Assembly: GCF_947496985.1 (NCBI RefSeq) | Contig: NZ_CANMEZ010000002.1 | Location: forward strand, 310,001 to 374,000 | DNA: 64,000 nt | Origin: an uncultured Kordia sp. | Lineage (GTDB): Bacteria; Bacteroidota; Bacteroidia; Flavobacteriales; Flavobacteriaceae | Direction: 5' to 3' | Part shown: positions 3,968 through 53,310 of the stretch, one piece after another | How positions within the stretch are numbered: the first letter of the stretch is position 1 | Layout of the letters: every line of letters begins with the position of its first letter | Notes under the pieces: generated by a model | The model's input: only the letters and a program-made list of their open reading frames with translations | Database searches by the model: none | Told to the model about the DNA's origin: nothing | Made by a program: the position numbers and the translations under genes

Positions 3968-4120
3968 AGTTTAATGTTTTATAGATTAATATTTATTTAT
4001 ACCTAAATTATAAAACAATACTTTATTCAACTAGAGGTAATTTCTGAATATACTATTTGAATTGCTAAACGTTTAATGACTAAATTTAGTTTTCAAACTA
4101 ATCTAAATCAAAATGTTAAC

Positions 4121-4135
4121 TACGGCTTTCCCGTA
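4121..4135. promoter_or_regulatory. Palindromic operator TACGG-N5-CCGTA before precursor B
   Basis: TACGG CTTTC CCGTA is a perfect 5-base inverted repeat with a 5-base spacer. Its centre is 67 bases before the start of precursor B and about 33 bases before TAATTTG at 4158-4164, a near match to the Bacteroidota -10 element. The same motif recurs at 10274, 12210, 63071 and 63240. Confidence 0.7.
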
Positions 4136-4194
4136 CTTATTTTTTGAGTGATTTTCATAATTTGAAAAAACTATTAACCTATAAATTATAGATC

Positions 4195-4377
4195 ATGAAA
4201 AAAAGAAACACTCAATCACTAAAACTTCGTAAGAGTTCAATTTCAAAACTCGGAAATGAACAAATTAAAGGGGGAATAAAACTTACCGATACATGCACAT
4301 CATTTATTGATGCTTGCCCTACGGCTTGGTGTCCACAGTCATTAATACCGAGAGATTGTGTATTTACAACTTGGTAA
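4195..4377 (+). CDS. RiPP (lanthipeptide-like) precursor B
   Basis: A 60-residue peptide. The leader has SLKLRKSSISKL and ends IKGG at about residue 28. The core of about 32 residues has four Cys (DTCTS, DACP, AWCP, RDCVF) and many Ser/Thr, suited to thioether rings but also to disulfides. It is the only precursor here on the plus strand and is preceded by the TACGG-N5-CCGTA palindrome. It ends in front of a strong hairpin shared with the converging amidohydrolase gene. No processing enzyme lies nearby. Confidence 0.75.
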   Translation: MKKRNTQSLKLRKSSISKLGNEQIKGGIKLTDTCTSFIDACPTAWCPQSLIPRDCVFTTW

Positions 4378-4401
4378 TACGTACGCTATTATAAAAACAA
4401 A

Positions 4402-4437
4402 AAAAGGAGAAGTGAATTACAACTCACTTCTCCTTTT
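4402..4437. terminator. Bidirectional terminator between precursor B and amidohydrolase
   Basis: AAAAGGAGAAGTGA pairs with TCACTTCTCCTTTT, a 14-base perfect stem with an 8-base loop and A/T tracts on each side. It lies between two converging genes. Confidence 0.9.
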
Positions 4438-4458
4438 AAATAATTTATTTTAAAAATA

Positions 4459-5739
4459 TTACTGCTTGTAAATTTTCCCATCTTTCATTACAAACACAAC
4501 ATTCTCCATTGTGTCAATATTTTTAGTAGGATCTTCATTAACTGCTACAATATCAGCTAAAAACCCTGCTTTTAATTGTCCTAATTCATTTTCCATTCCT
4601 AAAATTTTTGCATTGGTAATGGTCGCTGATTGAATTGTTTCCATAGCTGGCATTCCCGCTTCTACCATAAATCCAAATTCTTTTCCATTGAGTCCATGTT
4701 CATAAACACCAGCATCAGTTCCAAAAGCAATTCCAACACCTTTTTTGTATGCCTTCGCAAATGTTCCTTGAATTTTAGGCCCAACAGCTAATGCCTTTGG
4801 CACAATAATATCTGGATAATACCCGTCAATTTTTGCCTTTGCAGCTACTTCTTTCCCTGCAGTAATTGTTGGCACTAAATACGCATCATGCTTTTTCATG
4901 AGCTCCATTGTTTCATCACTCATTAATGTTCCATGTTCTATAGTTTTAACACCGCCAATAATAGCGCGTTGCATTCCTTCATCTCCATGTGCGTGTGCTG
5001 CTACATGCATTCCATAATCTTTTGCTGTTTCGCAAATTACTTTCACTTCCTCTACTGTAAACTGTGGATTACTTCCACTTTTTGCAACACTTAATACTCC
5101 TCCAGTTGCTGTAATTTTAATAACATCTGCGCCGTTTTTATAACGTTGACGTACTGCTTTTTTAGCATCACTTACATTATTTACAACACCTTCTTTTGGG
5201 CCTGGATCTCCAATAATTTCTTTTCTATTCCCGTTTGTAGGATCGGCATGTCCACCTGTGGTAGCCAGTGCTTTTCCTGCTGTAAAAATTCGAGGGCCTT
5301 CAATTTTTCCTTGATTGATAGCATTTCGCAGAGAAATATTTACGCCAGTCCCGCCTAAATCTCTTACCGTGGTGAATCCTGCTTGTAATGTTACATCAGC
5401 AAAACCAACCGAACGAAAAGCTACATCTGCATCATTTAGTGTATACTTTTCTATGTATGCTTTCGGATTTGTTTCGCTTTCAATATGTACATGCATATCT
5501 ATCAATCCTGGCATTACTGTTTTTGATTTTAAATCAATAACTATGTCGTTTGTATTTTTAGGGTCTACAAAACCATTATCAATACGCACAATTTTATTTC
5601 CTGAAACAACTATTGTCTTATTTGTCAGTACTTTTCCACTTTCTGTGTCTACTATTTTTCCACAATGAAGATACGTGTCTTGCGCAATAGCAATAGTAGA
5701 ACACAATATTCCTAAGAATAATATGAGTAGTTTTTTCAT
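4459..5739 (-). CDS. Exported metal-dependent amidohydrolase
   Basis: A 426-residue amidohydrolase-superfamily enzyme (imidazolonepropionase/prolidase-like group) with a signal peptide (LLILFLGILCSTIAIAQ). Metal-binding motifs run in order: MHVHIES (about residue 83), Lys in DVIKITATGG (possible carboxylated Lys), AAHAHGDEG, KTIEHGT and FGTDAGVYEHG. Such enzymes hydrolyse dipeptides or cyclic amides; the substrate cannot be told. It is probably the last gene of a transcript with galE (15-base gap) and the DegT gene, although its function does not obviously match theirs. Confidence 0.85.
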   Translation of the reverse strand: MKKLLILFLGILCSTIAIAQDTYLHCGKIVDTESGKVLTNKTIVVSGNKIVRIDNGFVDPKNTNDIVIDLKSKTVMPGLIDMHVHIESETNPKAYIEKYTLNDADVAFRSVGFADVTLQAGFTTVRDLGGTGVNISLRNAINQGKIEGPRIFTAGKALATTGGHADPTNGNRKEIIGDPGPKEGVVNNVSDAKKAVRQRYKNGADVIKITATGGVLSVAKSGSNPQFTVEEVKVICETAKDYGMHVAAHAHGDEGMQRAIIGGVKTIEHGTLMSDETMELMKKHDAYLVPTITAGKEVAAKAKIDGYYPDIIVPKALAVGPKIQGTFAKAYKKGVGIAFGTDAGVYEHGLNGKEFGFMVEAGMPAMETIQSATITNAKILGMENELGQLKAGFLADIVAVNEDPTKNIDTMENVVFVMKDGKIYKQ

Positions 5740-36712: not shown

Positions 36713-37207
36713 TTATTCTTCAACATTTAAAATAATTGGCAGTATAAATTTAGTAGCCACTGGAATACCGCGCTTGTTCGCTGGAGAAGCCTTTGGCAAA
36801 CTGTTAATACTTGCTCGAAGTAAACTATCTAAGTTTGGCAATTGATCTATGGTTAATTGATTTTTTTGAATTGCATCAATCTTAATAATTCCTAATGTAT
36901 CAATTTGTAAAGAAACCTGAATCGTGTCATGTATAGTTTTAGAAACCATGAAATCATTTACCGATAGACGCTCGTATATTTGATCGGTTAGTGTTTGAAA
37001 GAAACAGTTTTTTTGTGCTTCTTTTTTTAAATGATCACAACTTTCAAACGATGGAAATTCGTCCACTGTATCCAAATTTATACTTTTCTTTTCTTCTGCG
37101 ACAATGACTTCTTCTTTTACAATAGAACCATTGATGTATTCACACGAAATACATACAAAAAGTAGTAAACAATATTTCCAAAGGTGTTTCATTAGTACAA
37201 ATATCAT
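36713..37207 (-). CDS. TonB-like lipoprotein
   Basis: 164 residues with a lipoprotein signal (LLLFVCISC near residue 22). The FPSFESCDHLKKEAQKNCF stretch and the repeated FILPIILNVE end correspond to the TonB C-terminal-like domain seen in flavobacterial M56/TonB proteins. It lies downstream of the TPR gene and second M56 gene on the same strand. It may take part in the same envelope signal pathway. Confidence 0.6.
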   Translation of the reverse strand: MIFVLMKHLWKYCLLLFVCISCEYINGSIVKEEVIVAEEKKSINLDTVDEFPSFESCDHLKKEAQKNCFFQTLTDQIYERLSVNDFMVSKTIHDTIQVSLQIDTLGIIKIDAIQKNQLTIDQLPNLDSLLRASINSLPKASPANKRGIPVATKFILPIILNVEE

Positions 37208-37251
37208 GAAAAATACAACTTTTAGATATTTTGTAGTAACTTTCCGTTGGA

Positions 37252-38400
37252 TTATTCTGATTTTAAGTGAATTTCCTCCTTTAACTCTCGAATTCTAGTT
37301 CGTACAATTTTTACCATGTCTAATTTTGCTTTCGGAAACTTTTCCAGAAAACGTTCGTACATTTTTAGCTTTTCTTTTAAATCAGCGTATAAATTATCTG
37401 CACACAATGCCATTTGAAATTGCGCTTCTTCAAAATCTGGGTTTTCTTTTAAAGCTATTTTAAAATATTTCATTGCTGTTTTGTGTGCTTTTTTATCAAA
37501 AGCAATCAAACCTAAAATATAGTAATCTCCTGAAGTATCTATCATTTTTGCAGCAATGGATTGTGAGGCATGATATACCGCTTTTTCATGAACTCCATCC
37601 TTGTAATATAAAGTCGCCAATTGTGAATGGTAAAAATAGTTTCCCGGTTCGCGTTTCAAAGCTTCATTGTAATACTCGATTGCTTTTAAAATTTTCGAAA
37701 CTCTATAGGCCGCAAAAGCTGATTTTTCATAAACAAACTGTGTTGCTTTTTTTCGCTTGATGATTTTTTCAAACCAAAATAGTGCTTTCCCATATTTTCG
37801 CAATGCATAATAGTATTGTGCTTTATAGCCTATAACTTTTAAATCGTCTGGATTATTTTTCAAACCTACATCAATGACACTTTTTACCTCTTCAAAATTC
37901 TTTTGTTGCAAATGGTATACAATCAATTTGTAAATGCTTTTTTGATGTTGCGGATCAAGCTGAAAAGCCATTTCATAAGAAGTTACATAATCTCCAGCTT
38001 GTAAAGCTTCTTTTGACAGACCTATTTGATAATAAAAATTAGGGTTCAGTGTATCTTTTGCTTTTAACTTTTCAAAAATGGATAATGAGTTTTCATATTT
38101 ACTTGTAGCAAAAAGCAATTTTCCATAATCATATAAGACAAGTGTATTTAACGAATCTATTTGTAATGATTTTTCATAGTTTTCAAGCGCTTTTTTACTA
38201 TTTCCTAAGGCTTTATATGCTTTTGCTATTTGGATCGTTGCATACGCTTTATTTTCTATCTGTTCATATGCTTTAATAGCTTTTGAATAATTCCCAACAC
38301 GATACAAACTATCTGCATCTGACAAAGATAAAGTCGAAGTTTGCGCTCCGACTTTGAAAGTTGTCATTATAAGAATACCTAAAATGAATAATCTATTCAT
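37252..38400 (-). CDS. Exported TPR-repeat protein
   Basis: 382 residues with a signal peptide (LFILGILIMTTFKVGAQ) and about nine TPR units, such as YSKAIKAYEQIENK, SKKALENYEKSLQID and GKALFWFEKIIK. TPRs form a protein-binding scaffold. It follows the M56 gene by five bases, so it probably belongs to the second BlaI/M56 operon. Confidence 0.85.
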   Translation of the reverse strand: MNRLFILGILIMTTFKVGAQTSTLSLSDADSLYRVGNYSKAIKAYEQIENKAYATIQIAKAYKALGNSKKALENYEKSLQIDSLNTLVLYDYGKLLFATSKYENSLSIFEKLKAKDTLNPNFYYQIGLSKEALQAGDYVTSYEMAFQLDPQHQKSIYKLIVYHLQQKNFEEVKSVIDVGLKNNPDDLKVIGYKAQYYYALRKYGKALFWFEKIIKRKKATQFVYEKSAFAAYRVSKILKAIEYYNEALKREPGNYFYHSQLATLYYKDGVHEKAVYHASQSIAAKMIDTSGDYYILGLIAFDKKAHKTAMKYFKIALKENPDFEEAQFQMALCADNLYADLKEKLKMYERFLEKFPKAKLDMVKIVRTRIRELKEEIHLKSE

Positions 38401-38405
38401 AGGTG

Positions 38406-39890
38406 TTAATGTATTTTAAATGCAATTGGCAATAAATATTTTATACTTACTGGTTTCCCATCTTTTTCTCCAGGCGCTAATTTTGGTAACATTAGTAAAA
38501 TACGCTCAACTTCTGTTTCCAAATCAGGATGTGGTGCACGAACATTCATATCAGTTACGGCTCCGTTTTTATCTATAATAAACTTTGCATAAATTTTTTG
38601 AACTTCTTCTCCTAACTCTAACTTCCCAGCCATTTTCATATCAAAATTTTTATTAACATGTTTTTGGATACTGAGAATAAAACAATCTTTCAATTCCTCT
38701 AAAGTTCCAGAAGATTCACAACCTGGAAAAACTGGTGCTTTATCTATAACTTTGAACTCAATAGGGTCACTTTGTAATTCACTATAATTACCACCTTCAG
38801 CAATGCGTTTTTTACGAATGTTAAGGTAATCTTCATATGATTGAAGTTTGTATTCCTTCGCAAATTCTCCATCTTTATCTACTAGTTTTGAAATTTCAGT
38901 CATCAACTTAACTACTTCATCATATTGCATTCTAGTGAAGTATTCATCATCTTTAAGATTTTGATTAAGTTCATTCAATCGCTTATACAGACTTTTAAGT
39001 TTCGCATCTTTATCTCCTGGATCAACACTTTCAATAGTATATTCAATATCTGCTATATTAGTTGCATTAGAAGTATAGAATAATGAAAGGATTAATACGG
39101 GTACTAATACTAAGTACTTTAACTTTAAAATTTGACGGGATTTTTGTTTTGTTAACATAATAATTCGTTTTTTAATTAATGAGTGTTTAAAGAATTGATT
39201 GGTAAACGAAAAATGCTGTGTTTGAAAGACTTCAGCCAACAATTTTTCATAATAATCGGATTTGTTATTTTCTTTAGCTACAGAAGCATCTGCGATATAT
39301 TCATGTACTTCTGAGATTCGTTTTTGATAGATATATACTAACGGATTGAACCAACATAGAATACGTAAGAGTTCAAAGTATAATAAGTCGATAGAATGTT
39401 TTTCACGAACGTGAACCAATTCGTGTGAAAGTATGTTTTGTAATTTTTCTTCGCTAATATTATTTCCAATAAATACATAATTGAAAATTGAAAATGCAAC
39501 ACTACTATTGGGTATTTTTATGATTTTATGATCTCCTTTATGTACAATGATCCCTTTTAATTTTAGTTGAATCAATTGTGTTATTTTGTATATGAACAAT
39601 GAACTACTCACTACAATTCCTATAATAACATACCAATTCCATGATGGAGCAATAACTTCTACTGTTTTTTCAGGCGTTAATACAATTTCGGGCAACAATA
39701 CTATATATTCTTGCGGAACCGCATTTTGAAAGCTTTCAATTTTAATAAAAGGCAATACAAAAGAAATCAGTGAGGAAAAAATTAAGTAAACTCTGTTCCA
39801 ATTAAAGAATGTCTCTTTTTTTAAAAATAAATCGTATGCTAGTAAAAATAGCAATTGAAACGCTAAAACTTGAATGAGATATTGTATCAT
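38406..39890 (-). CDS. BlaR1-type M56 metalloprotease with TonB C-terminal domain
   Basis: 494 residues. Membrane helices and the zinc site HELVH in LSHELVHVREKH (about residue 155), FNPLVYIYQKR and HEYIADA form the M56 part; a helix at about 255-275 is followed by a linker and a C-terminal TonB-like domain (APVFPGCES, VQKIYAKFIIDKNG, KYLLPIAFKIH). It overlaps the BlaI homologue by four bases. The exported domain differs completely from that of the M56 protein at 15133, so the signals sensed probably differ. Confidence 0.88.
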   Translation of the reverse strand: MIQYLIQVLAFQLLFLLAYDLFLKKETFFNWNRVYLIFSSLISFVLPFIKIESFQNAVPQEYIVLLPEIVLTPEKTVEVIAPSWNWYVIIGIVVSSSLFIYKITQLIQLKLKGIIVHKGDHKIIKIPNSSVAFSIFNYVFIGNNISEEKLQNILSHELVHVREKHSIDLLYFELLRILCWFNPLVYIYQKRISEVHEYIADASVAKENNKSDYYEKLLAEVFQTQHFSFTNQFFKHSLIKKRIIMLTKQKSRQILKLKYLVLVPVLILSLFYTSNATNIADIEYTIESVDPGDKDAKLKSLYKRLNELNQNLKDDEYFTRMQYDEVVKLMTEISKLVDKDGEFAKEYKLQSYEDYLNIRKKRIAEGGNYSELQSDPIEFKVIDKAPVFPGCESSGTLEELKDCFILSIQKHVNKNFDMKMAGKLELGEEVQKIYAKFIIDKNGAVTDMNVRAPHPDLETEVERILLMLPKLAPGEKDGKPVSIKYLLPIAFKIH

Positions 39891-40261
39891 GATTGCTTGT
39901 TATTTTTTTCAATTTCTTTGAGAATATCTTCTAACTCAGAAGTATTGATATCATTTTTTTGCATGAAAAACGAAACCATACTTTTAAAAGATCCTTGAAA
40001 ATAACCATTCACTAATTTCGAAATAGATTGATTGCTATATTCTGATTGAGCTAATAAAGGAAAATAGATATGTCCTTTACCTACTTTTTCATACCCTACA
40101 AATCCTTTCCCTTCTAGAATTCGAACAATTGTAGAAACAGTATTATATGCAGGTTTTGAACCTTTAAAATTTTCAATAATAGTTTTTACGTTTGCCTTTT
40201 TCAGTTGCCAGAGGATTTGCATAATCTCCTCTTCTGCCTTCGTTAATTGTTTCATATTCAA
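39887..40261 (-). CDS. BlaI/MecI/CopY-family repressor (second copy)
   Basis: 124 residues, or 122 from MKQLTKAEEEIMQILW. The recognition region KPAYNTVSTIVRIL differs from KPATTTIATLLKRM in the first copy, which fits the quite different palindromes in front of each operon. The wing is KGFVGYEKVGKGHIYFPL. It heads a row with the M56, TPR and TonB-like genes. Confidence 0.9.
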   Translation of the reverse strand: MNMKQLTKAEEEIMQILWQLKKANVKTIIENFKGSKPAYNTVSTIVRILEGKGFVGYEKVGKGHIYFPLLAQSEYSNQSISKLVNGYFQGSFKSMVSFFMQKNDINTSELEDILKEIEKNNKQS

Positions 40262-40916: not shown

Positions 40917-43900
40917 TTATTTTAAAATATTCACTTTACTTCCTGCTTTCCAGGTTTTAAACTCATCTCCATAATACAAATATACTGTACTGGCTGGCGC
41001 TTGATAGTTTCCTGGAACGTCTGCTTTTAAATCTAAACGAATTGTTTTGGTTTCGTTTGCTCTGAAAAATCGCCAATAGAACACTAAATAGTTGTCAAAA
41101 ATTTCATAGTATGCTATTTCATTTTCTTCCATCAGCTTTTTAAGTTGCCACGATTGTGGTGTTGTTCCAGATGGAATACCAATAATCGCTGTAACCATTC
41201 CTAAGTTTTCATTCTTCTTATTGATGACATTGATTGCCATACTCACATTATCTCCTACATTATACGACTTATCCGCAATAATAGTTTCTAGGTTTATCGG
41301 AGACTGCGCTGACGATTTTGGTAAAGAACTATCATAATTAATATTTAAAGAATACGGAAATGTGTTTTTAGGATTTGAAAATTTGACTTTTATTTTTTGG
41401 TTTCCTCTCGTTATATACGAATCAATATTATTAATAGTGATTTTACCGTTTTTAGCAATGTTTAATTCACTATTTAATTGTTTTCCATTAATTGTTAACG
41501 CCACAAAATCACCTTTTGCTACTAGTTTTGTTTTTTGAGTTTTTGTATATTCAATTAATGCTTTTAATGCCATTGCTGTAGATTGCGTAGAGCCAAAACT
41601 ATTGTTTTGTCGTTTGCTTACTAAATGCTCAATACCTTGTGAGATTAAAATTTCGTCAGGCTTCTCTTCTTTTAATAAAGCAAGTAGAGAAAAAGCAACC
41701 GCTTCTATATTTTTGGCATTACCATAAGAACGTGTAATTGTGTTTTCTACTGGTAACTGCGAGAAATTGTATATTTCTATATTCTTCTTGATTTTACCAA
41801 TCAATACTTGCGCATTTTTATTTTCACCAAGATTGAAACTAACGCAAGCCAACAATGCCATTTTATAGGTATCATTAGTCTTTAAGGCATCTTGTAGTGC
41901 ATACTGATACTCTTTTTCAATTGTTACATTTACTCCAGATTCGCTTAAAGCATATATAATGTAAGCGTTGGCTACGTCATCTGGTGAACTCGCAAAACTA
42001 TCATATCCCTTATTACTTCTATTAAATCCTCCTTTTCCATCACGCCTGCTCAACAACCATTGAACTGTTCTATCAATCATTTTTTGATCAACGTCTCCAA
42101 ATACTTCTTTCATCTCAGTAAATTCCAAGATACCATATGCAGTAAGTGTTTCATGTGGCGGCGTTTTTCCAAACCATTCAAAACCGCCCTTTTTGGTTTC
42201 AAAACTAATTAAGCGCTTGTAACCTTCTTTTATGAAACTTAATGCTTGCTTTTCAATTTCGGGATTACTTTTATTAGCTTCTTTTAGATATTTTAAAACC
42301 ATAATGTTAGGATACGTAGCTGAGGAAGTTTGCTCAAAACATCCATATGGTTTTCTGATCATTCCTTCTATTCCATCCATAACATCACCAATAATATCTG
42401 TGTAAATGGTAAAATCGGCTTCCAGACTTCCATCTACTGCATGATCTACTGAAAAGTTATACGATGCTGATTTAGATCCTGAAATGGAAACCTCCGTTGG
42501 AAAATAAGGACTTAGTATTGTAGCTTCTCTTTCAACAAAATCAGTTAAACTCTCCGATTTTAAATCAATACCAATCATCACTTTTTCAGCTTTTTTAATT
42601 GGCTTCACTTTTACATATTTTACAATGCTACTATTTGCTTCAACAACAATATTTTTATCATACGACTCCAACAATTCAAGTGCTTTTGGAAGTTTCATTT
42701 CTAAAGTAGTTTCAATCCTTTCCCTTGTTTCATTCGTAATGGTAACTGGCAATATTACAGTATCATTCAACACCATATAATTTGGTGACTTAAAATCAAC
42801 ATTTAATAACTTTTTTGTAGCATAATCTTTCTTTTCACGTCCAACTAAACCATTGTATCCAATACCTTCCACAAGAACTTGAAAAGACGTAATTGCATCT
42901 GAATTATATAATTCAAACGAAGCTTTTCCGCTTTCATCAGTTTGTACTACCGGATTCCAATAAATGGTTTGCCTAAAGTCTTTACGCTCCTGTGGTAATT
43001 CTTTACTATCATACATAGGAATGTAAAATTGCTTTGCAGTATATACGTTGGTAGGTTTATTATTGGAAAAAGTTTTAAAAGCATAATTTTTATACTTTGC
43101 ATACTTCAATTTTTTCTTTCCCCAATTATGGAAATTTGATTTTTTTGTGGTAATTACGACAACACCATTTGTAGCGGCACTACCATATAAAGAAGTAGCT
43201 GCTGCATTTTTTAAAATAGCAATATTATCTATTTCGTTATTATTGATTTTTGATAAAACTTTACTATCACAAAGAACTCCATCTACAATAAATAAAGGTT
43301 GATTATTTCCTTTTATTGAACTTGCACCTCTGATTGAAATTGTAGTCCCATTTCCATATGCCCAATTAGAGTTTACTATTTCAATTCCTGCTGCTCTACC
43401 TCGTAACACCTGTGCTATAGATTCATTAGCTCCTAACTCTTCTGACTCTACCTCAACTACATAACCAGCCACATTATTTATTTTTTCAACTCCATAAGCT
43501 ACAACAACTACTTCACCTAAACTTGCGTCATCACCAGCTAAAGAAACTGACACATTTGCTTTTTTCTTTATTTTTTGTTGTGTTGGATTATTAAATTTTG
43601 ACGGCGAATCTTTTAGTCTGTTTTTATTTTTTTGTGCTGCTGCGGGTGCACCATCATTGCTAGTAACTAACCTTTCTTGTTCAATGATTTCTAACTTTCT
43701 TCCATCTTCTGTATAGGCAATCAAAGTAAGATTATATGCGCTATTAAATTTAAAATAAAATTGTCCCTTTTTGTTCGTTTCAAAAGCTAGTACTTTATTT
43801 CCGTATTGATTAAATAATAATAATTTAGCATGTACCGGATTTCCTTTTTCATCAACAACTTTACCTGATTGTATCGTAAATTGCTCTGGTAAATATGCCG

Positions 43901-45479
43901 CTTCACTTATTAAGACTGGTTTCTCTATATAATTTCTCCAACCATGTGTAAGCATCACATAATCTAATGCTTTATATGACTTTTCTTCTTCAGGGTTGAA
44001 ATAGAAGTTTGGCTTGTGTATTTTTGCCTTTAGCTCCGATGATAATAATAAATATGATAATATATGATCTTGTTTATCATCTGCATAAGACAATAATTTA
44101 TTATCAACAATTGCTACAGATACATTTGAAGGAATAGGATTATTGTCTTCATCTTTTGTAGTGATTGTTACTTTTACTTTTTCGCGTGTTAAATAACTTT
44201 CTTTGTCAAGTTCTACGTCAATTTGAAGCTGCTTGTGTGCATTTAAAAAGACCAATCTTTCTGCTAACGGATTGTTATCTGTATCAACAATTCTAAATTT
44301 TGTAATACCAATAGGAAATTTTTTGGTATCTATAGAAATATTATGCTGCTTATATGTTATTCTTTTCTTCAATAACATGTTTTCAGTATCTGAAATTTCT
44401 AAATACAATTGTTTATCAATAGTTGTGTTTACTTGAATTTTTGTTAATAAACTATCTGTTTGCACCATAAAATTTACTCCTTTTTGATGAATTTCTGGAA
44501 GTGTTATTTTTTTCACTGACGCAAAAGGAACAGTTAGTTTTGCATAGTATTTTCTAGCGAAAGCTGGATTGAGATAAAAAGCGCCCATACCATCATGAAA
44601 ACTCTCAAAAGAAGTTACAAAACTTCCATTTTCGTCTATGATATTACCCTGTACATCAACAGGTTTCCCAAATTCATCAATAGCTTTAAAAGCTACATTG
44701 CTTTTTACGCCTTGTATTAGTTTTCCACTTTCTGGAAAAAATTGCAGATCAATCGTATCCAAGACCATCGGAATGCTTCTTGAAATAGATTCCGTTGTAC
44801 CTTTGTGTGGAATTTGAATATTGAGCACAACATCTCTTGTAGCTACATCATCTGGAAGTTTAAATTGCAATTTTGCTTTTCCTTCTTCGTTTGTATTATC
44901 TTTTTTGGAAAGAATCACTTCTCCTTTTATAGAAACTTCATATGATAGTTCTGTATTACGCAACGGATTGTTTTTTAAATCTTTTGCTTCAAAATTTGCT
45001 ACTACTGAAGATGATTTTCCATATCCTTTCTTTTCAAACTTTAATGATAATAATACATTTGGCTTTATAACTTTTTGAACGGTTATTTTCTTGGTAAAGA
45101 AAGCTTCATCTCCATAATTATGCATCCAGTTGGTGTACATTTTCATTGTATAAATTCCTCCTACCCAATTTTTATTAATTGCAAAATCGCCATAAGCATA
45201 TCCTTGATTGATTGCCAATTTTAATCTTTTTACAATACTTCCTTTTGGTGAGATTAATTCTGCGTACATGACATCATTTACGGTAGAAATTGTATGATCT
45301 CCGTTAACAACATATGACTTGAACCATATGGTTTCACCTGGAAAGTAAAATGGTCTATCAGTTTGTGTATAAATTTTTTCTAAATTTCCTTTTTCTCCCT
45401 GTGCATTTACCTGCATTGCAAAACTTGCTAAAAATGCTACACACACTATTTTAATGAGGTTGTTTTTTAATGCTTTCAT
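40917..45479 (-). CDS. Alpha-2-macroglobulin-like protein with an internal TonB plug domain
   Basis: 1520 residues with a signal peptide (ending MQVNAQ). The first 520 residues are macroglobulin-type beta domains, including MG2 (KIYTQTDRPFYFPGETIWFKS). At about 540-600 there is a carboxypeptidase-regulatory-like fold (SGKVVDEKGNPVHAKL). Residues about 650-780 are a SusC-type TonB receptor plug: GEVVVVAYG, VLRGRAAGIEI, TISIRGASSI, PLFIVDGV, SLYGSAATNGVVVITTKK. Macroglobulin domains resume, and RKPYGCFEQTSSATYPNIM near 1043 holds an intact CxEQ thioester motif, followed by a helical toroid (WLLSRRDGKGGFNRS) and the receptor-binding-like end. It probably traps proteases or binds large substrates at the outer membrane. 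It begins three bases after a SusC-like barrel gene that seems to lack a plug. Confidence 0.85.
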   Translation of the reverse strand: MKALKNNLIKIVCVAFLASFAMQVNAQGEKGNLEKIYTQTDRPFYFPGETIWFKSYVVNGDHTISTVNDVMYAELISPKGSIVKRLKLAINQGYAYGDFAINKNWVGGIYTMKMYTNWMHNYGDEAFFTKKITVQKVIKPNVLLSLKFEKKGYGKSSSVVANFEAKDLKNNPLRNTELSYEVSIKGEVILSKKDNTNEEGKAKLQFKLPDDVATRDVVLNIQIPHKGTTESISRSIPMVLDTIDLQFFPESGKLIQGVKSNVAFKAIDEFGKPVDVQGNIIDENGSFVTSFESFHDGMGAFYLNPAFARKYYAKLTVPFASVKKITLPEIHQKGVNFMVQTDSLLTKIQVNTTIDKQLYLEISDTENMLLKKRITYKQHNISIDTKKFPIGITKFRIVDTDNNPLAERLVFLNAHKQLQIDVELDKESYLTREKVKVTITTKDEDNNPIPSNVSVAIVDNKLLSYADDKQDHILSYLLLSSELKAKIHKPNFYFNPEEEKSYKALDYVMLTHGWRNYIEKPVLISEAAYLPEQFTIQSGKVVDEKGNPVHAKLLLFNQYGNKVLAFETNKKGQFYFKFNSAYNLTLIAYTEDGRKLEIIEQERLVTSNDGAPAAAQKNKNRLKDSPSKFNNPTQQKIKKKANVSVSLAGDDASLGEVVVVAYGVEKINNVAGYVVEVESEELGANESIAQVLRGRAAGIEIVNSNWAYGNGTTISIRGASSIKGNNQPLFIVDGVLCDSKVLSKINNNEIDNIAILKNAAATSLYGSAATNGVVVITTKKSNFHNWGKKKLKYAKYKNYAFKTFSNNKPTNVYTAKQFYIPMYDSKELPQERKDFRQTIYWNPVVQTDESGKASFELYNSDAITSFQVLVEGIGYNGLVGREKKDYATKKLLNVDFKSPNYMVLNDTVILPVTITNETRERIETTLEMKLPKALELLESYDKNIVVEANSSIVKYVKVKPIKKAEKVMIGIDLKSESLTDFVEREATILSPYFPTEVSISGSKSASYNFSVDHAVDGSLEADFTIYTDIIGDVMDGIEGMIRKPYGCFEQTSSATYPNIMVLKYLKEANKSNPEIEKQALSFIKEGYKRLISFETKKGGFEWFGKTPPHETLTAYGILEFTEMKEVFGDVDQKMIDRTVQWLLSRRDGKGGFNRSNKGYDSFASSPDDVANAYIIYALSESGVNVTIEKEYQYALQDALKTNDTYKMALLACVSFNLGENKNAQVLIGKIKKNIEIYNFSQLPVENTITRSYGNAKNIEAVAFSLLALLKEEKPDEILISQGIEHLVSKRQNNSFGSTQSTAMALKALIEYTKTQKTKLVAKGDFVALTINGKQLNSELNIAKNGKITINNIDSYITRGNQKIKVKFSNPKNTFPYSLNINYDSSLPKSSAQSPINLETIIADKSYNVGDNVSMAINVINKKNENLGMVTAIIGIPSGTTPQSWQLKKLMEENEIAYYEIFDNYLVFYWRFFRANETKTIRLDLKADVPGNYQAPASTVYLYYGDEFKTWKAGSKVNILK

Positions 45480-45482
45480 AGC

Positions 45483-48320
45483 CTAAATTTTTATATTTAA
45501 TGTTAAACCAACCTCGCTTAAAAGTGGCGTATTGAAAAAGTTAAGTTCTTGAGCGGAGCTATTTCCATACAAAGCTCCATAAGGTGAGTTTCCTCTGAAT
45601 TTTGACCAAGTGAATAGATTTTTTGCATACAAGCCTAATTTACACTCTCTAAAGAAAGGATCTTCATTGTGCTTATTTTCAAAAGAGTATGAGATATCAA
45701 TTGATTTGATATTCACGTAACTTGCATCTACAATAGCATCTTCTGCAACACCTTCAAAACCATATTGAACAAATCTGTTTTCTGATACAGGATTCCCAGA
45801 ATTGTAGAAATCAACCGGAATTGTATTTGTATTTCCTTGTTGATTAACTCCATTGAAAATAAAATTAGTGATGCCTCTATCTGTTGCAGATTGTTGTGAA
45901 GTCCCTAAATAGTTGAGGACATTTTGAGTTCCATTCCAACTATCGCCGCCTTTTTGAATATCAATGACAATATTTAATGCAAAATTCTTCCATTCAAATG
46001 TATTGCTAAAACCTATATTATAATCAGGTATTGGGTCACCAATAATTTGAGATGTTGGGTTTACCAATGGAAAACCATCATCGCCAATTACAAGATTGTT
46101 TTGTGCGTCTCTTTGGTAAGCACTACCGACAATTACACCTGCAGGCTGACCAACTATTAGATTTTTAGACGTTGTTGAAAATCCAGCAATTGGAATTCGT
46201 GCTTCATTAGTTGATAGTTTTTTGACTTCGGTATCATACGTATTAAAAGAAACACGAGGTTTATAGTAAAAATGACTCCCAATTGAAACTCTTGAATCGA
46301 TACTAATTTCGAATCCTGAACTTTTAATATCTGCAACATTAGCTAAGCTAAAAGCTCCATTGTTGATGACAGGAAAAACACTTCCTTTTGTTTTTGTGTA
46401 GTAATGCGTAAAATCTATATCAGTTCTTCCTTCAAGTATATACAAACCTACTGAAAGATTCGTTTCATAATTAAACACCTCTTCCAAGTCAAGAGCAGAA
46501 TTGATAAATAAATCGTTGTTAGAGGTATAACTCAAACTTTCTTGCGGAGAAATAAGCAAACTATTATGACTTAAATTATTATAATAAAGCGGAGCGTCAT
46601 TAACATCAAAAGATATATTTGAAGACAATGTCAAATTATTTAACATTCCATATATATCAAACAATCTACTTAGGTTTACTTTAGTGTAAAACGACGGTAA
46701 AAACCATTTATCATCTTGTATGGATGAATAATAGGAATTATTAGTAAATTTAAATGTAACTTCTCTATCTAAGTCATATGAAAATTGATTCAACAATCGT
46801 AACGTACTTCTTGTTTTTGTTTGATTTATTTGAATCGTATTTGCTGCATTTTCAAATGAAAAAGGAGTAAAACCTGAAGATTCTAGCAATGAAAAACCTA
46901 AGTCCTGATGTACATAATTAATAATTGACTTAACCTTAATTTCATTATCATTACCTGTATAAGTATTGAATGTAAAACTACCAACCGCATTCAAATTATT
47001 TTCTTTGATTTGTTTATTACTTGCAAATCCTTCTTCAAATCCTGCCGTTCCATTTACTACACCAAATTTTTGTTCTTGGTTTGCATGTCTGTAGTTTAAC
47101 TTTCCTTTGAGTTTGATATCGTCTGTAATATCAATTTCATTTTGAATACTGGCTACAAAAGAGCTGTTTTCAATTGCGTTTCTATTAGTACTTAACAACC
47201 ATTCAGGATTATTGAATTCTGTATTAAATCTTCGTTGTGTATTGTTTGCTAAAGTTGCTCCTTGACTGTTGCTGAAAGATGGTGGTGTTGCCCACAGATT
47301 TAAAAGTAAGTTATTTTGAAAACCGTTGATGTTTGGCTGATTATCTTTATCTACTTCATAAATAACAAACGCATCCCATCCTAGTTTATCCCTTTTTCTA
47401 TTCTTTTTGTAATTGATTTTGAACTTGTTATTAAAACTCCGTTCTCTATTGTATACATCTTTAAAACTTTGGTTAGAAAAGTTAAAATTGATAAGGTTTA
47501 AATTTGTAGATAGATCAAAATATACTTGATGCGAATTAACAATTATATTTTCAAACAATGAGTTGTCATATGAATTGGCAGCAATTCCATTTCCACTTCC
47601 TTGATTCACTAATTGTCCATTTGTATCGTATATATAATTAGCGCTGTTAAACTCAAGTGTGTTAAGCGCAGGTCCATAAGAAAATGGATTCCCTGTTGCT
47701 GCTCCCTGAAACGCGAGCGCTCCAAAAATTGGAATTCCCTGACTAAAAGAACGTTGCAATTCTGGTAAATTTCTGTCTCTGACAAATTGAAATCCAACAC
47801 TTGAATTATATCCTATTTCATAAAAAATGTCTGAAGGAAAGTAAGTTAATCTTACATTTTCTTTTTGAATTTCAACATCTTTAATTCTGTTATACTCAAA
47901 ATAAGTTTCATTTTTATTATAAGTCCTGTTAGAATTTTCAAGACTTTGAACAAAATCGACTTCTTTTTTAAGCTTATTAATAGTTTCTGAATATGCATCA
48001 GAGTGTATTTTTTTTACGGATACGTATCGTAGTTTTGTATTGGTTACTTCTCCAAACATTTCAGGAGACACAACAACTTCTCTCTTTGCCATTCCAATAT
48101 AGGTAAAGACTAAAGTTTCGCCAACACTACATTCAATAGTATAGTTTCCATCAAAATCTGCTACAGTTCCAATAAAGGTTCCTTTTACAATAATGCTAGC
48201 ACCTGGTAACGGAAGACCGCTATCATCAAGTAGCGTTCCTGAAATTTTTCCTTGTTGTGCAAATAGTATCGATGTTGCCAACAAACAAACAACTGCAAGT
48301 ATTTTATTTTTCAAATTCAT
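45483..48320 (-). CDS. SusC/RagA-like outer-membrane barrel lacking a recognisable plug
   Basis: 945 residues with a signal peptide (ILFAQQ) and a carboxypeptidase-regulatory-like domain at about 24-100 (GKISGTLLDDSGLPLPGASI). A SusC family plug should follow, but residues about 100-180 are charged and helical (KIHSDAYSETINKLKKEVDFV) with none of the plug motifs. From about 182 (RNLPELQRSFSQG, FSYGPALNTLEF) the sequence matches the part of SusC that follows the plug, and runs as a complete barrel to FNTPLLSEVGLTLNIKI. The usual plug length is therefore missing. The next gene, three bases on, encodes a SusC-type plug inside a macroglobulin-like protein. No susD partner is adjacent. Confidence 0.85.
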   Translation of the reverse strand: MNLKNKILAVVCLLATSILFAQQGKISGTLLDDSGLPLPGASIIVKGTFIGTVADFDGNYTIECSVGETLVFTYIGMAKREVVVSPEMFGEVTNTKLRYVSVKKIHSDAYSETINKLKKEVDFVQSLENSNRTYNKNETYFEYNRIKDVEIQKENVRLTYFPSDIFYEIGYNSSVGFQFVRDRNLPELQRSFSQGIPIFGALAFQGAATGNPFSYGPALNTLEFNSANYIYDTNGQLVNQGSGNGIAANSYDNSLFENIIVNSHQVYFDLSTNLNLINFNFSNQSFKDVYNRERSFNNKFKINYKKNRKRDKLGWDAFVIYEVDKDNQPNINGFQNNLLLNLWATPPSFSNSQGATLANNTQRRFNTEFNNPEWLLSTNRNAIENSSFVASIQNEIDITDDIKLKGKLNYRHANQEQKFGVVNGTAGFEEGFASNKQIKENNLNAVGSFTFNTYTGNDNEIKVKSIINYVHQDLGFSLLESSGFTPFSFENAANTIQINQTKTRSTLRLLNQFSYDLDREVTFKFTNNSYYSSIQDDKWFLPSFYTKVNLSRLFDIYGMLNNLTLSSNISFDVNDAPLYYNNLSHNSLLISPQESLSYTSNNDLFINSALDLEEVFNYETNLSVGLYILEGRTDIDFTHYYTKTKGSVFPVINNGAFSLANVADIKSSGFEISIDSRVSIGSHFYYKPRVSFNTYDTEVKKLSTNEARIPIAGFSTTSKNLIVGQPAGVIVGSAYQRDAQNNLVIGDDGFPLVNPTSQIIGDPIPDYNIGFSNTFEWKNFALNIVIDIQKGGDSWNGTQNVLNYLGTSQQSATDRGITNFIFNGVNQQGNTNTIPVDFYNSGNPVSENRFVQYGFEGVAEDAIVDASYVNIKSIDISYSFENKHNEDPFFRECKLGLYAKNLFTWSKFRGNSPYGALYGNSSAQELNFFNTPLLSEVGLTLNIKI

Positions 48321-48736: not shown

Positions 48737-48746
48737 GCAATTTTAG

Positions 48747-48820
48747 CGGTCTGGACGGGATTCGAACCCGCGACCCCATGCGTGACAGGCATGTATTCTA
48801 ACCAGCTGAACTACCAAACC
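48747..48820 (-). tRNA. tRNA-Asp (anticodon GUC), copy 1
   Basis: Acceptor GGTTTGG pairs with CCAGACC (one G-U) before discriminator G. The anticodon arm is CATGC-CTGTCAC-GCATG with GTC; the T arm has GGGTTCGAATCCC. The length is 74 bases, CCA not encoded. Confidence 0.95.
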
Positions 48821-49167: not shown

Positions 49168-49177
49168 GCAATTTTAG

Positions 49178-49251
49178 CGGTCTGGACGGGATTCGAACCC
49201 GCGACCCCATGCGTGACAGGCATGTATTCTAACCAGCTGAACTACCAAACC
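49178..49251 (-). tRNA. tRNA-Asp (anticodon GUC), copy 2
   Basis: Sequence identical to copy 1 over all 74 bases, with 357 bases between the two. Confidence 0.95.
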
Positions 49252-51856: not shown

Positions 51857-52876
51857 TTACTTTTTGACTTCAAACGAATACGTAGCTATTAAATCATTTT
51901 TGATGTATAAATGCACGTCATAATAGCCTCTAAAGTCAAATGCATGTTCGAAGATTAAAGTTGTTTTCTCTGTGGAAATGAAACTAGGCTTTACTTTCTT
52001 TTCATTTTCATTTTTTTCAACAATCAGATGAACATCATTTTTATTTATATTTTTCAATAAGCGATATCGAAATGTAACTTTTTCATTTTGCTTAACGGTA
52101 TTGTCTAGTTTTTTTGGCTCAAGGTGATTGCTGAAATAGTTATACGCGTTTCCATAAATTACTGGTGCTTCTAAAAACATATTAAAAGTTGGTTTTTCTT
52201 CTGCTAGTAAAAACCATTCTTCATTTTGAGGATAATGATTTATAGAAAATATATTTGGATCTGACAGAAAAAAACCATCATTAAAATAAAATTGAAAGCG
52301 ATATGTTGTAGGGTTTGGGATTCCACTTGCCCAAGTTGGATCGCAGAGATACCATTTATCGTTGAGTTTTACGGCATTCCAAGAGTGATTTGGCGAGTTT
52401 ATGTCTAATGTTTCAATATTGATGGTACTCGTTCGCGCATGACCATTTACTATTTTACATTCAATGCCTGCCAAACTTGCTAATTCTTTTACTAAATAAG
52501 CATATCCTGTACAAACTGTTCTATTCTTTTTGAGGAGCTTTTTGAAAGCTGTTTTTTTAAATTCAGCATTCCATGCAGCAAGTTTTACACTATCATTTCT
52601 GTAGCGCCTGCGTTTTCGCATGTTTCTTGTAAACATGCTATAATCATTAGAAATATTACTACAAACCCATTTAAATATGGCTCTAAAACGCTCAATATCT
52701 GTTGTTAATTCAGAAGTTAGTTTGTATGATAATTGAGGTAGATTGGAAAGATTTTCATCTTTGTATTTCAGTGCAATTTTATCTGCTTTATCAAATTTTA
52801 CAGTTTTAAAATCAGCAATTTGTGCATTGGACTGAAATACAAAAATGAATAAAAAAATATACGTTATTCTTCTCAT
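51857..52876 (-). CDS. Secreted transglutaminase-like protein
   Basis: 339 residues with a signal peptide (ITYIFLFIFVFQSNAQ). The transglutaminase-like triad is Cys in RTVCTGYAYLVKELASLAGI, His in NHSWNAVKL and Asp in YLCDPTWASG. The C-terminal 100 residues form a beta-sandwich. It may cleave or cross-link peptides in the periplasm. It lies upstream of nothing else on this strand and follows a small CarboxypepD-like gene by 26 bases. Confidence 0.85.
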   Translation of the reverse strand: MRRITYIFLFIFVFQSNAQIADFKTVKFDKADKIALKYKDENLSNLPQLSYKLTSELTTDIERFRAIFKWVCSNISNDYSMFTRNMRKRRRYRNDSVKLAAWNAEFKKTAFKKLLKKNRTVCTGYAYLVKELASLAGIECKIVNGHARTSTINIETLDINSPNHSWNAVKLNDKWYLCDPTWASGIPNPTTYRFQFYFNDGFFLSDPNIFSINHYPQNEEWFLLAEEKPTFNMFLEAPVIYGNAYNYFSNHLEPKKLDNTVKQNEKVTFRYRLLKNINKNDVHLIVEKNENEKKVKPSFISTEKTTLIFEHAFDFRGYYDVHLYIKNDLIATYSFEVKK

Positions 52877-52902
52877 TAAGTAATTACGATGTGTATCAAT
52901 AA

Positions 52903-53310
52903 CTAGTTGTTACGTTTCGATTTGTAACGTTTGTTCGAGTTTGGAGCACCTGTAAATTCAAATACTTCCTCATAAATTGTTAGTTTGATAAACGTAGTAG
53001 TGTCTTTAATTTTAAATTCTTTCGTTTTATATCCAATAAAACTAATGACTAAGACATCTCCTGTTTTTAAAGCAGTTGGGAATGTAAACTCTCCTTTTTC
53101 ATTCGTTACAACTCCCATATTGGTATCTTTTAGAATGACATTAGCGCCAAGGATAGGTCCGCTTTCATTACTAACAATACCTTTTATCGTTTTACCTTTT
53201 TGTGAAGTAGTTGTATTTGATTGTCCAAACATTGGATTAAATGCAAAAATGGCAAATACCAACATTGTAGTATACCACAGCTTTCGTGTACTTGTTAATT
53301 GAATCTTCAT
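52903..53310 (-). CDS. Secreted carboxypeptidase-regulatory-like domain protein
   Basis: 135 residues with a signal peptide (MLVFAIFAFNPMFGQ) and one CarboxypepD_reg-like fold (GKTIKGIVSNESGPILGANVIL, GEFTFPTALKTGDVLVISFIGYKTKEF). This is the domain that usually precedes TonB receptors, here alone. It may be a cut-down receptor fragment or an independent small exported protein. It precedes the transglutaminase-like gene. Confidence 0.8.
   Translation of the reverse strand: MKIQLTSTRKLWYTTMLVFAIFAFNPMFGQSNTTTSQKGKTIKGIVSNESGPILGANVILKDTNMGVVTNEKGEFTFPTALKTGDVLVISFIGYKTKEFKIKDTTTFIKLTIYEEVFEFTGAPNSNKRYKSKRNN

Follow-up and report, generated by a model that had tools for sequence, protein, structure and literature searches.

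Certain flavobacteria seem to cut an outer-membrane transporter in two, with the pore on one protein and the stopper inside a neighbouring protein of the protease-trap type. The split is confirmed in the window (the whole stretch of 64,000 nucleotides of DNA analysed here, from an uncultured Kordia sp.), where it is real and far beyond chance, and it was found in 33 loci. TonB receptors normally carry plug and barrel on one chain. In the window, two adjacent minus-strand genes each match a different part of the SusC profile TIGR04056 (981 positions): a barrel ORF (45483-48320, 945 amino acids) and a macroglobulin ORF (40917-45479, 1520 amino acids). Three bases lie between the TAG stop codon of the barrel and the ATG of the macroglobulin, and the reading frame is unchanged. 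The features of the pair are these:

45483-48320, minus strand: plugless SusC-like outer-membrane barrel protein, 945 amino acids (TIGR04056 270-980; no plug)
48066-48245, minus strand: N-terminal extension (NTE), CarbopepD_reg_2, barrel residues 26-85 (E 1.7e-12)
47826-48059, minus strand: segment in the plug's place, barrel residues 88-165, 78 amino acids, 25 of them charged (no plug match)
45486-47750, minus strand: barrel domain, residues 191-945 (TIGR04056 and 5fq6_B coverage)
40917-45479, minus strand: thioester macroglobulin (MG) with SusC plug, 1520 amino acids (Pfam and TIGR04056)
45129-45377, minus strand: MG2 domain, MG residues 35-117 (Pfam)
43134-43532, minus strand: full SusC-type plug, MG residues 650-782, between the MG1-6 part and MG7 (Pfam, TIGR04056)
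43497-43517, minus strand: TonB-box-like motif GEVVVVA, MG residues 655-661 (compare DEVVVTG of BT1763)
42699-42968, minus strand: A2M domain (PF00207), MG residues 838-927, C-terminal of the plug (Pfam)
41520-42479, minus strand: thioester-containing domain (TED), MG residues ~1001-1320 (Pfam)
42330-42341, minus strand: thioester motif C1047-F-E-Q1050 of the MG (GCxEQ pattern)

The first-pass annotation had described a barrel devoid of plug motifs, with charged residues where the plug should be, and an entire SusC-type plug inside the macroglobulin. HMM searches of both proteins bore this out, placing a plug on the macroglobulin only and a SusC-type barrel on the 945-residue protein. Macroglobulin residues 633-821 correspond to TIGR04056 57-242, the part holding TonB box and plug (E 1.7e-45), and barrel residues 244-944 to 270-980, their best stretch (E 3.4e-49). 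Pfam matches in the macroglobulin are Plug (676-773, E 2.8e-12), MG2, A2M and TED_complement (PF07678, E 1e-33). In the barrel protein, the Pfam scan detected neither a Plug family match at E<=1 nor the STN signalling domain, and residues 88-165 carry no plug match. On its own the barrel scores 168 bits against TIGR04056, whose family cut-off is 368. When profiles of the two halves are run on a solved SusC chain (5fq6_B), residues 10-173 fall to the plug and 246-984 to the barrel. By inspection, both proteins begin with a signal peptide. PMC7782687 identifies the NTE of SusC proteins with PF13715.

Co-occurrence of plug-bearing macroglobulins and plugless barrels

Thirty-three thioester macroglobulins with a full plug were collected: that of the window, those of an uncultured Winogradskyella (L054) and a Sphingobacterium (L055), and 30 from survey loci. 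Of the survey loci, 25 come from a survey of 395 genomes of the order, which gave 26 positives with the window counted (6 in family f1 and 20 in family f2), and five come from a 149-genome survey of the family. The loci cluster in two families, f1 and f2 (the latter taken to be Weeksellaceae), plus one Sphingobacterium. A macroglobulin fragment on a 3.9-kb contig (L048, genome G079) was left out of the barrel count. In every one of the 33, the gene just upstream, on the strand of the macroglobulin, encodes a SusC-like barrel, the gap ranging from -86 to +10 nucleotides as called. A plug HMM built from 48 intact SusC proteins and run with HMMER filters off scores these macroglobulins at 102-165 bits (n=33) and matches 0 of the 33 split barrels; it matches all 13 intact SusC controls, but these 13 sit among the model's 48. 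Among the observations that, according to the first-pass annotation, would speak against a plug in trans are a plug within the barrel and a barrel with an intact plug adjoining such a macroglobulin. The former was seen in 0/33 barrels and the latter at 0/33 loci.

A match that skips the plug region was obtained in 42 genomes, 20 of which were fetched. None of 33 related thioester macroglobulins classed as plug-free by the plug HMM has a SusC-like neighbour in the stretch fetched, and the count is 0/30 when L056, L058 and L062, which have too little flank, are left out. For the set of 30, the association between plug and barrel has a Fisher p of ~1e-18, a figure that ignores shared descent. The GCxEQ thioester motif is present in 33/33 plug-bearing proteins and in 33/33 plug-free relatives. 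The thioester macroglobulin of L143 (6177-10955) has CarbopepD_reg matches and a Pfam plug match that is marginal, at 24.2 bits against a cut-off of 23.9; the sequence fetched around it contains no barrel. At L064, a plug-bearing ORF of 791 amino acids lies ~5 kb off and is not SusC-like by the plug HMM.

Plugs of varying completeness also occur in macroglobulins that lack a TED. Such proteins (L088-L107, n=23; 785-913 amino acids) come from other families and from the source genome, which has five (L106, L107), three of them with no plug match; across the 23, plugs score 10-94 bits or are missing, and a plugless barrel adjoins 0/23. The plugs of L102 and L104 (88 and 94 bits) align to almost the full length of the plug model, so a macroglobulin plug does not always imply a plugless barrel. 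L090 lies near an intact SusC. Plug-like pieces are also found in vWA proteins and in a mini-plug protein of 156 amino acids. The first-pass annotation asked whether plugless barrels and plug-bearing macroglobulins always occur together: they do for thioester macroglobulins in the sampled genomes, with L143 as a marginal exception, and they do not for the TED-less ones.

Searches in the opposite direction, with the barrel as query, scored the two or three top candidates of each genome. Among the 395 genomes of the order, 38 match: the 26 with a plug-bearing macroglobulin, and 12 more. From these 12, ten loci were fetched (G740 and G773, the latter with an open frame of 921 amino acids, were left out), and all are intact SusC proteins with the plug in the same chain. 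In the class, 23 of 295 genomes match; a short frame is present in just two, both with a plug-bearing macroglobulin; the other 21 consist of 20 frames of at least 1023 amino acids, judged by length alone, and one fragment at a contig edge.

Signature residues, co-divergence and ancestry

Nine plug columns are invariant in the 48 intact SusC proteins; for eight of them, at most one of the 33 macroglobulin plugs departs from the SusC residue. Kept residues include the Arg of IRG, the Asp of DG and the Gly of YG (33/33 each) and the Lys of VLK (32/33). The ninth invariant column, an Ile, is kept in 28/33, and less strict columns vary more among the macroglobulin plugs. A TonB-box-like pattern occurs on the macroglobulin chain in 31/33 cases; elsewhere it is found in 5/13 intact SusC, 1/33 plug-free macroglobulins and 2/33 split barrels (window and L086, both at the NTE end by inspection). 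Because it finds only 5/13 intact SusC, the pattern is not sensitive and the aligned columns are to be preferred, in which the macroglobulin plugs have E in 32/33 and V in 31/33.

Split barrels have lost several residues that hardly vary among intact SusC: one Arg goes from 48/48 to 3/21, another from 47/48 to 1/32, and a Glu from 44/48 to 0/33. The fit between plug and barrel may therefore differ from that in SusC, or these residues may serve SusD. A candidate charge cluster of plug Arg and Lys with a barrel Glu, modelled on residues of FhuA, is kept in 33/33, 32/33 and 29/33, and is only suggestive because other barrel residues are lost.

To assess co-divergence, each of the 33 pairs was cut into six parts, and the distances between loci, part by part, were compared by partial Mantel correlation. 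Given the MG parts, plug and barrel correlate with r 0.49 (p 0.0002, n=33), and with r 0.88 in f2 (n=20), 0.46 in f1 (n=12) and 0.46 and 0.41 in thinned sets, with p<=0.006 in all five sets. With other parts held constant, the plug still correlates with the barrel (r 0.49) but shows no correlation with the rest of its own chain (r -0.29, -0.03 and 0.02, n=33). The NTE-linker part of the barrel chain, which is the most divergent part, gives r 0.18 (n=33). Other signals are a plug to MG7-TED correlation in two thinned sets (r 0.24 and 0.33), plug to MG1-6 in f2 (0.26), MG1-6 to barrel in four of the five sets (0.60-0.75, the value in f2 being -0.16) and MG7-TED to barrel in f2 (0.44). Shared rate shifts could cause part of the co-divergence. 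It is evidence for a joint function of plug and barrel, not proof of contact.

Within f2, L074 and L081 are 87-90% identical in the MG parts, yet their plugs share 40% identity and their barrels 78%, the barrel divergence lying mainly in its middle. Comparison of L074 with L081 and L080 delimits a variable plug island at MG residues ~640-830 in an otherwise 85-90% identical protein. This island looks as if plugs had been swapped or had undergone diversifying selection.

All split barrels fall into a single clade (support 0.997). Its nearest relatives in the tree, L108 closest of all, are intact SusC proteins that had been picked by barrel similarity and are thus a biased choice. The plug tree is weak and does not recover the macroglobulin plugs as one clade, and the plug of L108 has a longer loop. 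Simple fission of one SusC was considered as an origin and rejected on these grounds: the weak tree, the lack of a single macroglobulin-plug clade and the L108 loop suggest that plug and barrel may derive from different SusC proteins.

A probable plug in trans and alternative explanations

The order in the plug-bearing macroglobulins is MG domains, CarboxypepD-like domain, TonB box, plug, A2M/MG7 and TED, with Lys-rich tethers flanking the plug. By domain order, the plug appears to lie at the bait-region position of macroglobulins, the slot between MG6 and MG7 being filled by the CPD-like domain, the plug and the tethers. The same slot was scanned in 32 of the 33 plug-free relatives (L062 had no scorable segment); 27/32 have a CarboxypepD-like domain there, which in most cases is followed by a segment with many charged and small residues. 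Two of the 32, both thioester macroglobulins, have a TonB C-terminal domain in the slot (PF03544; L141, 6402-11543, and L142, 6284-10966), a hint that macroglobulins and the TonB system may be connected more widely. An AlphaFold model of MG residues 233-1340 (15 sequences) is fair for MG domains and TED and has a pTM of 0.37; its plug lies mostly below 50 pLDDT, so the model neither supports nor refutes a plug acting in trans. Its best Foldseek matches are A2ML1, CD109 and A2M (E 1e-32 to 1e-30, with TM-scores of only ~0.2). A barrel model (three sequences, mean pLDDT 31) was set aside.

Family f2 has an additional plug carrier. A second plug-bearing gene occurs one or two places upstream of the barrel at 20/20 f2 loci (L073-L082, L118-L127) and at L068 in f1; the window locus lacks this arrangement. 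Eighteen of the second carriers score at least 80 bits and three are partial (41-46 bits; L068, L073, L076). When the gene immediately before the barrel was scanned at each of the 20 f2 loci, 18 encoded a vWA domain and 11 a Pfam plug, a count that excludes carriers at seven loci (L082, L118-L121, L123, L125) where the carrier lies one place beyond a directly upstream gene without a plug. By inspection, those second carriers that were read have a transmembrane segment near the N-terminus, and we take the layout for that of an anti-sigma factor. A sigma-type gene lies upstream in nine f2 loci (L073-L081, by clustering; model-checked in L081) and in L068, where a model confirmed it, and eight more f2 loci have a gene of equal size in that position. 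L068 also encodes, at 4031-4501, a 156-residue protein in which a signal-like N-terminus precedes two copies of the C-terminal half of a plug; the gene order is sigma gene, small gene encoding a TM-like stretch, gene of the 156-residue protein and plugless barrel. Two plug carriers per plugless barrel in f2 suggest exchange, or sensing of the state of the barrel.

The plug of the macroglobulin probably serves the neighbouring barrel in trans, which would make the pair a two-chain TonB receptor with its plug on a periplasmic macroglobulin. This agrees with the first-pass annotation and supports it indirectly; as it also inferred, the thioester macroglobulin may gate the barrel or be loaded by it. 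The 945-residue protein would provide a SusC-type barrel without a plug, to which the 1520-residue thioester macroglobulin in the periplasm would lend its built-in plug. The signal peptide and the lack of a lipobox would place the macroglobulin there. Both ends of the plug of a TonB-dependent transporter face the periplasm, so a plug within a periplasmic protein could enter the barrel from below, where it would sit inside and in contact with the barrel wall. TonB would presumably pull the TonB box, which travels with the plug and is now on the macroglobulin. More speculatively, drawing the plug from the barrel, or cutting the Lys-rich tethers, might release the macroglobulin and expose its thioester, an expectation that follows from the bait-region position of the plug; a protease or other protein entering the opened pore might then be caught covalently, the gate being wired to the trap. 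The arrangement suggests that gate and trap are built as one machine. That release of the plug also arms the thioester is a tentative proposal, which we think rather unlikely to be correct. Just as doubtful is a joint reading in which a TonB-pulled plug replaces the bait region, pore opening and not proteolysis arms the thioester, the entrant is trapped in the periplasm, and the second plug of f2, carried by a vWA protein that is anchored in the membrane and linked to a sigma factor, is a competitor for the barrel and reports whether the macroglobulin plug is spent.

The macroglobulin plug could instead be only a TonB-docking or structural module, the barrel being closed by its own loops or by the replaced N-terminal segment. 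Plugs elsewhere fit such a role, in TED-less macroglobulins (with L102 and L104 near-full and lacking a plugless barrel), vWA proteins and the mini-plug protein, as does the recurrence of a plug-replacing segment like that of the window in 9 of 11 other f1 loci (L054 included); L071, L072, f2 and L055 have no match to it. However, a full plug and a plugless barrel come together in 33/33 cases and plug-free thioester macroglobulins lack the barrel, the plugs that accompany a barrel outscore those of the 23 TED-less relatives (at most 94 bits or none), and plug and barrel co-diverge, so that we regard a mere docking module as improbable. Still less probable is that the barrel is an export or display channel for the macroglobulin, with the plug marking cargo and the macroglobulin or a trapped product leaving the cell. 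PMC6434023 offers a precedent in the TonB receptor Oar, needed for secretion of the protease PopC, but gives PopC as 50.8 kDa, far smaller than a multidomain macroglobulin of 1520 residues, and a lipobox was found in none of the 33 plug-bearing macroglobulins searched. The plug might also serve other, intact SusC barrels of the cell, with the pair acting as regulator or decoy. The source genome has 44 plug matches besides the macroglobulin and 22 TIGR04056 matches, macroglobulin included, and the macroglobulin plug retains SusC signature residues; yet intact SusC proteins have plugs of their own, and pairing and co-divergence point to the neighbour, which leaves this explanation with very little to recommend it.

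A two-chain receptor with the plug in trans has an artificial counterpart in FhuA, whose plug and barrel have reportedly been expressed as two chains in a laboratory construct; here the division is natural and the plug is fused to another protein. Compared with SusC/RagA proteins (TIGR04056; BT1763, RagA, BT2264), NTE, TonB box, plug and SusC-type barrel are all present once the two chains are added. SusC/RagA, however, carry plug and TonB box in the barrel chain, whereas the pair has both on the other protein, and the barrel alone falls below the family cut-off. No SusD-like gene was noticed beside the pair when the neighbour genes at 13 loci were read. According to PMC7782687, the Ton box of BT1763 is DEVVVTG, its mutation causes a growth defect on levan, and the BT1763 plug is able to leave the barrel in vitro. 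With thioester alpha-2-macroglobulins (A2ML1, CD109, A2M and the periplasmic ECAM/YfhM), the window protein has MG domains, TED and CxEQ in common; they have a disordered bait region where it has a TonB plug before A2M/MG7. As described in PMC4498604, cutting the disordered bait region of E. coli alpha-2-macroglobulin leaves it untethered with its thioester exposed, and the partner of ECAM is often PBP1C; the partner of the window protein is a barrel. The f2 loci resemble FecA-FecR-FecI, as outlined in PMC11658791 and PMC7782687, in having a sigma-type gene and a transmembrane plug protein upstream. Unlike FecR, the anchored protein of f2 has a plug of its own and, in most cases, a vWA domain, and unlike FecA, the window barrel has no STN that the Pfam scan could find. 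Such a pair was not found in the open-access literature searched; what came up instead, including work on a pyocin and on a zinc receptor, was not relevant.

With a natural receptor whose plug is on a second, functionally different protein, it would be possible to test directly how the plug leaves and re-enters the barrel, by tagging or deleting each partner on its own. Such a receptor would also link TonB force to the complement/macroglobulin fold. Whatever the mechanism, the architecture is unusual enough to merit experiments.

Genes surrounding the pair in the window

Upstream of the window barrel are two tRNA-Asp genes and a DUF58 gene. The tRNA-Asp(gtc) genes, at 48746-48820 and 49177-49251, are 431 bases apart and, by eye, lie in like stretches of a few hundred bases. 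A promoter scan gave 56 matches where 44.7 were expected and was uninformative. Positions 36713-40261, near the macroglobulin, encode a BlaI-type repressor, an M56 (BlaR1-type) peptidase with a C-terminal TonB_C domain, and a TPR protein; an opposite-strand DUF456 gene intervenes. At 51857-53310, a Transglutaminase-like protein is encoded beside a stand-alone CarbopepD_reg_2 protein of 135 amino acids.
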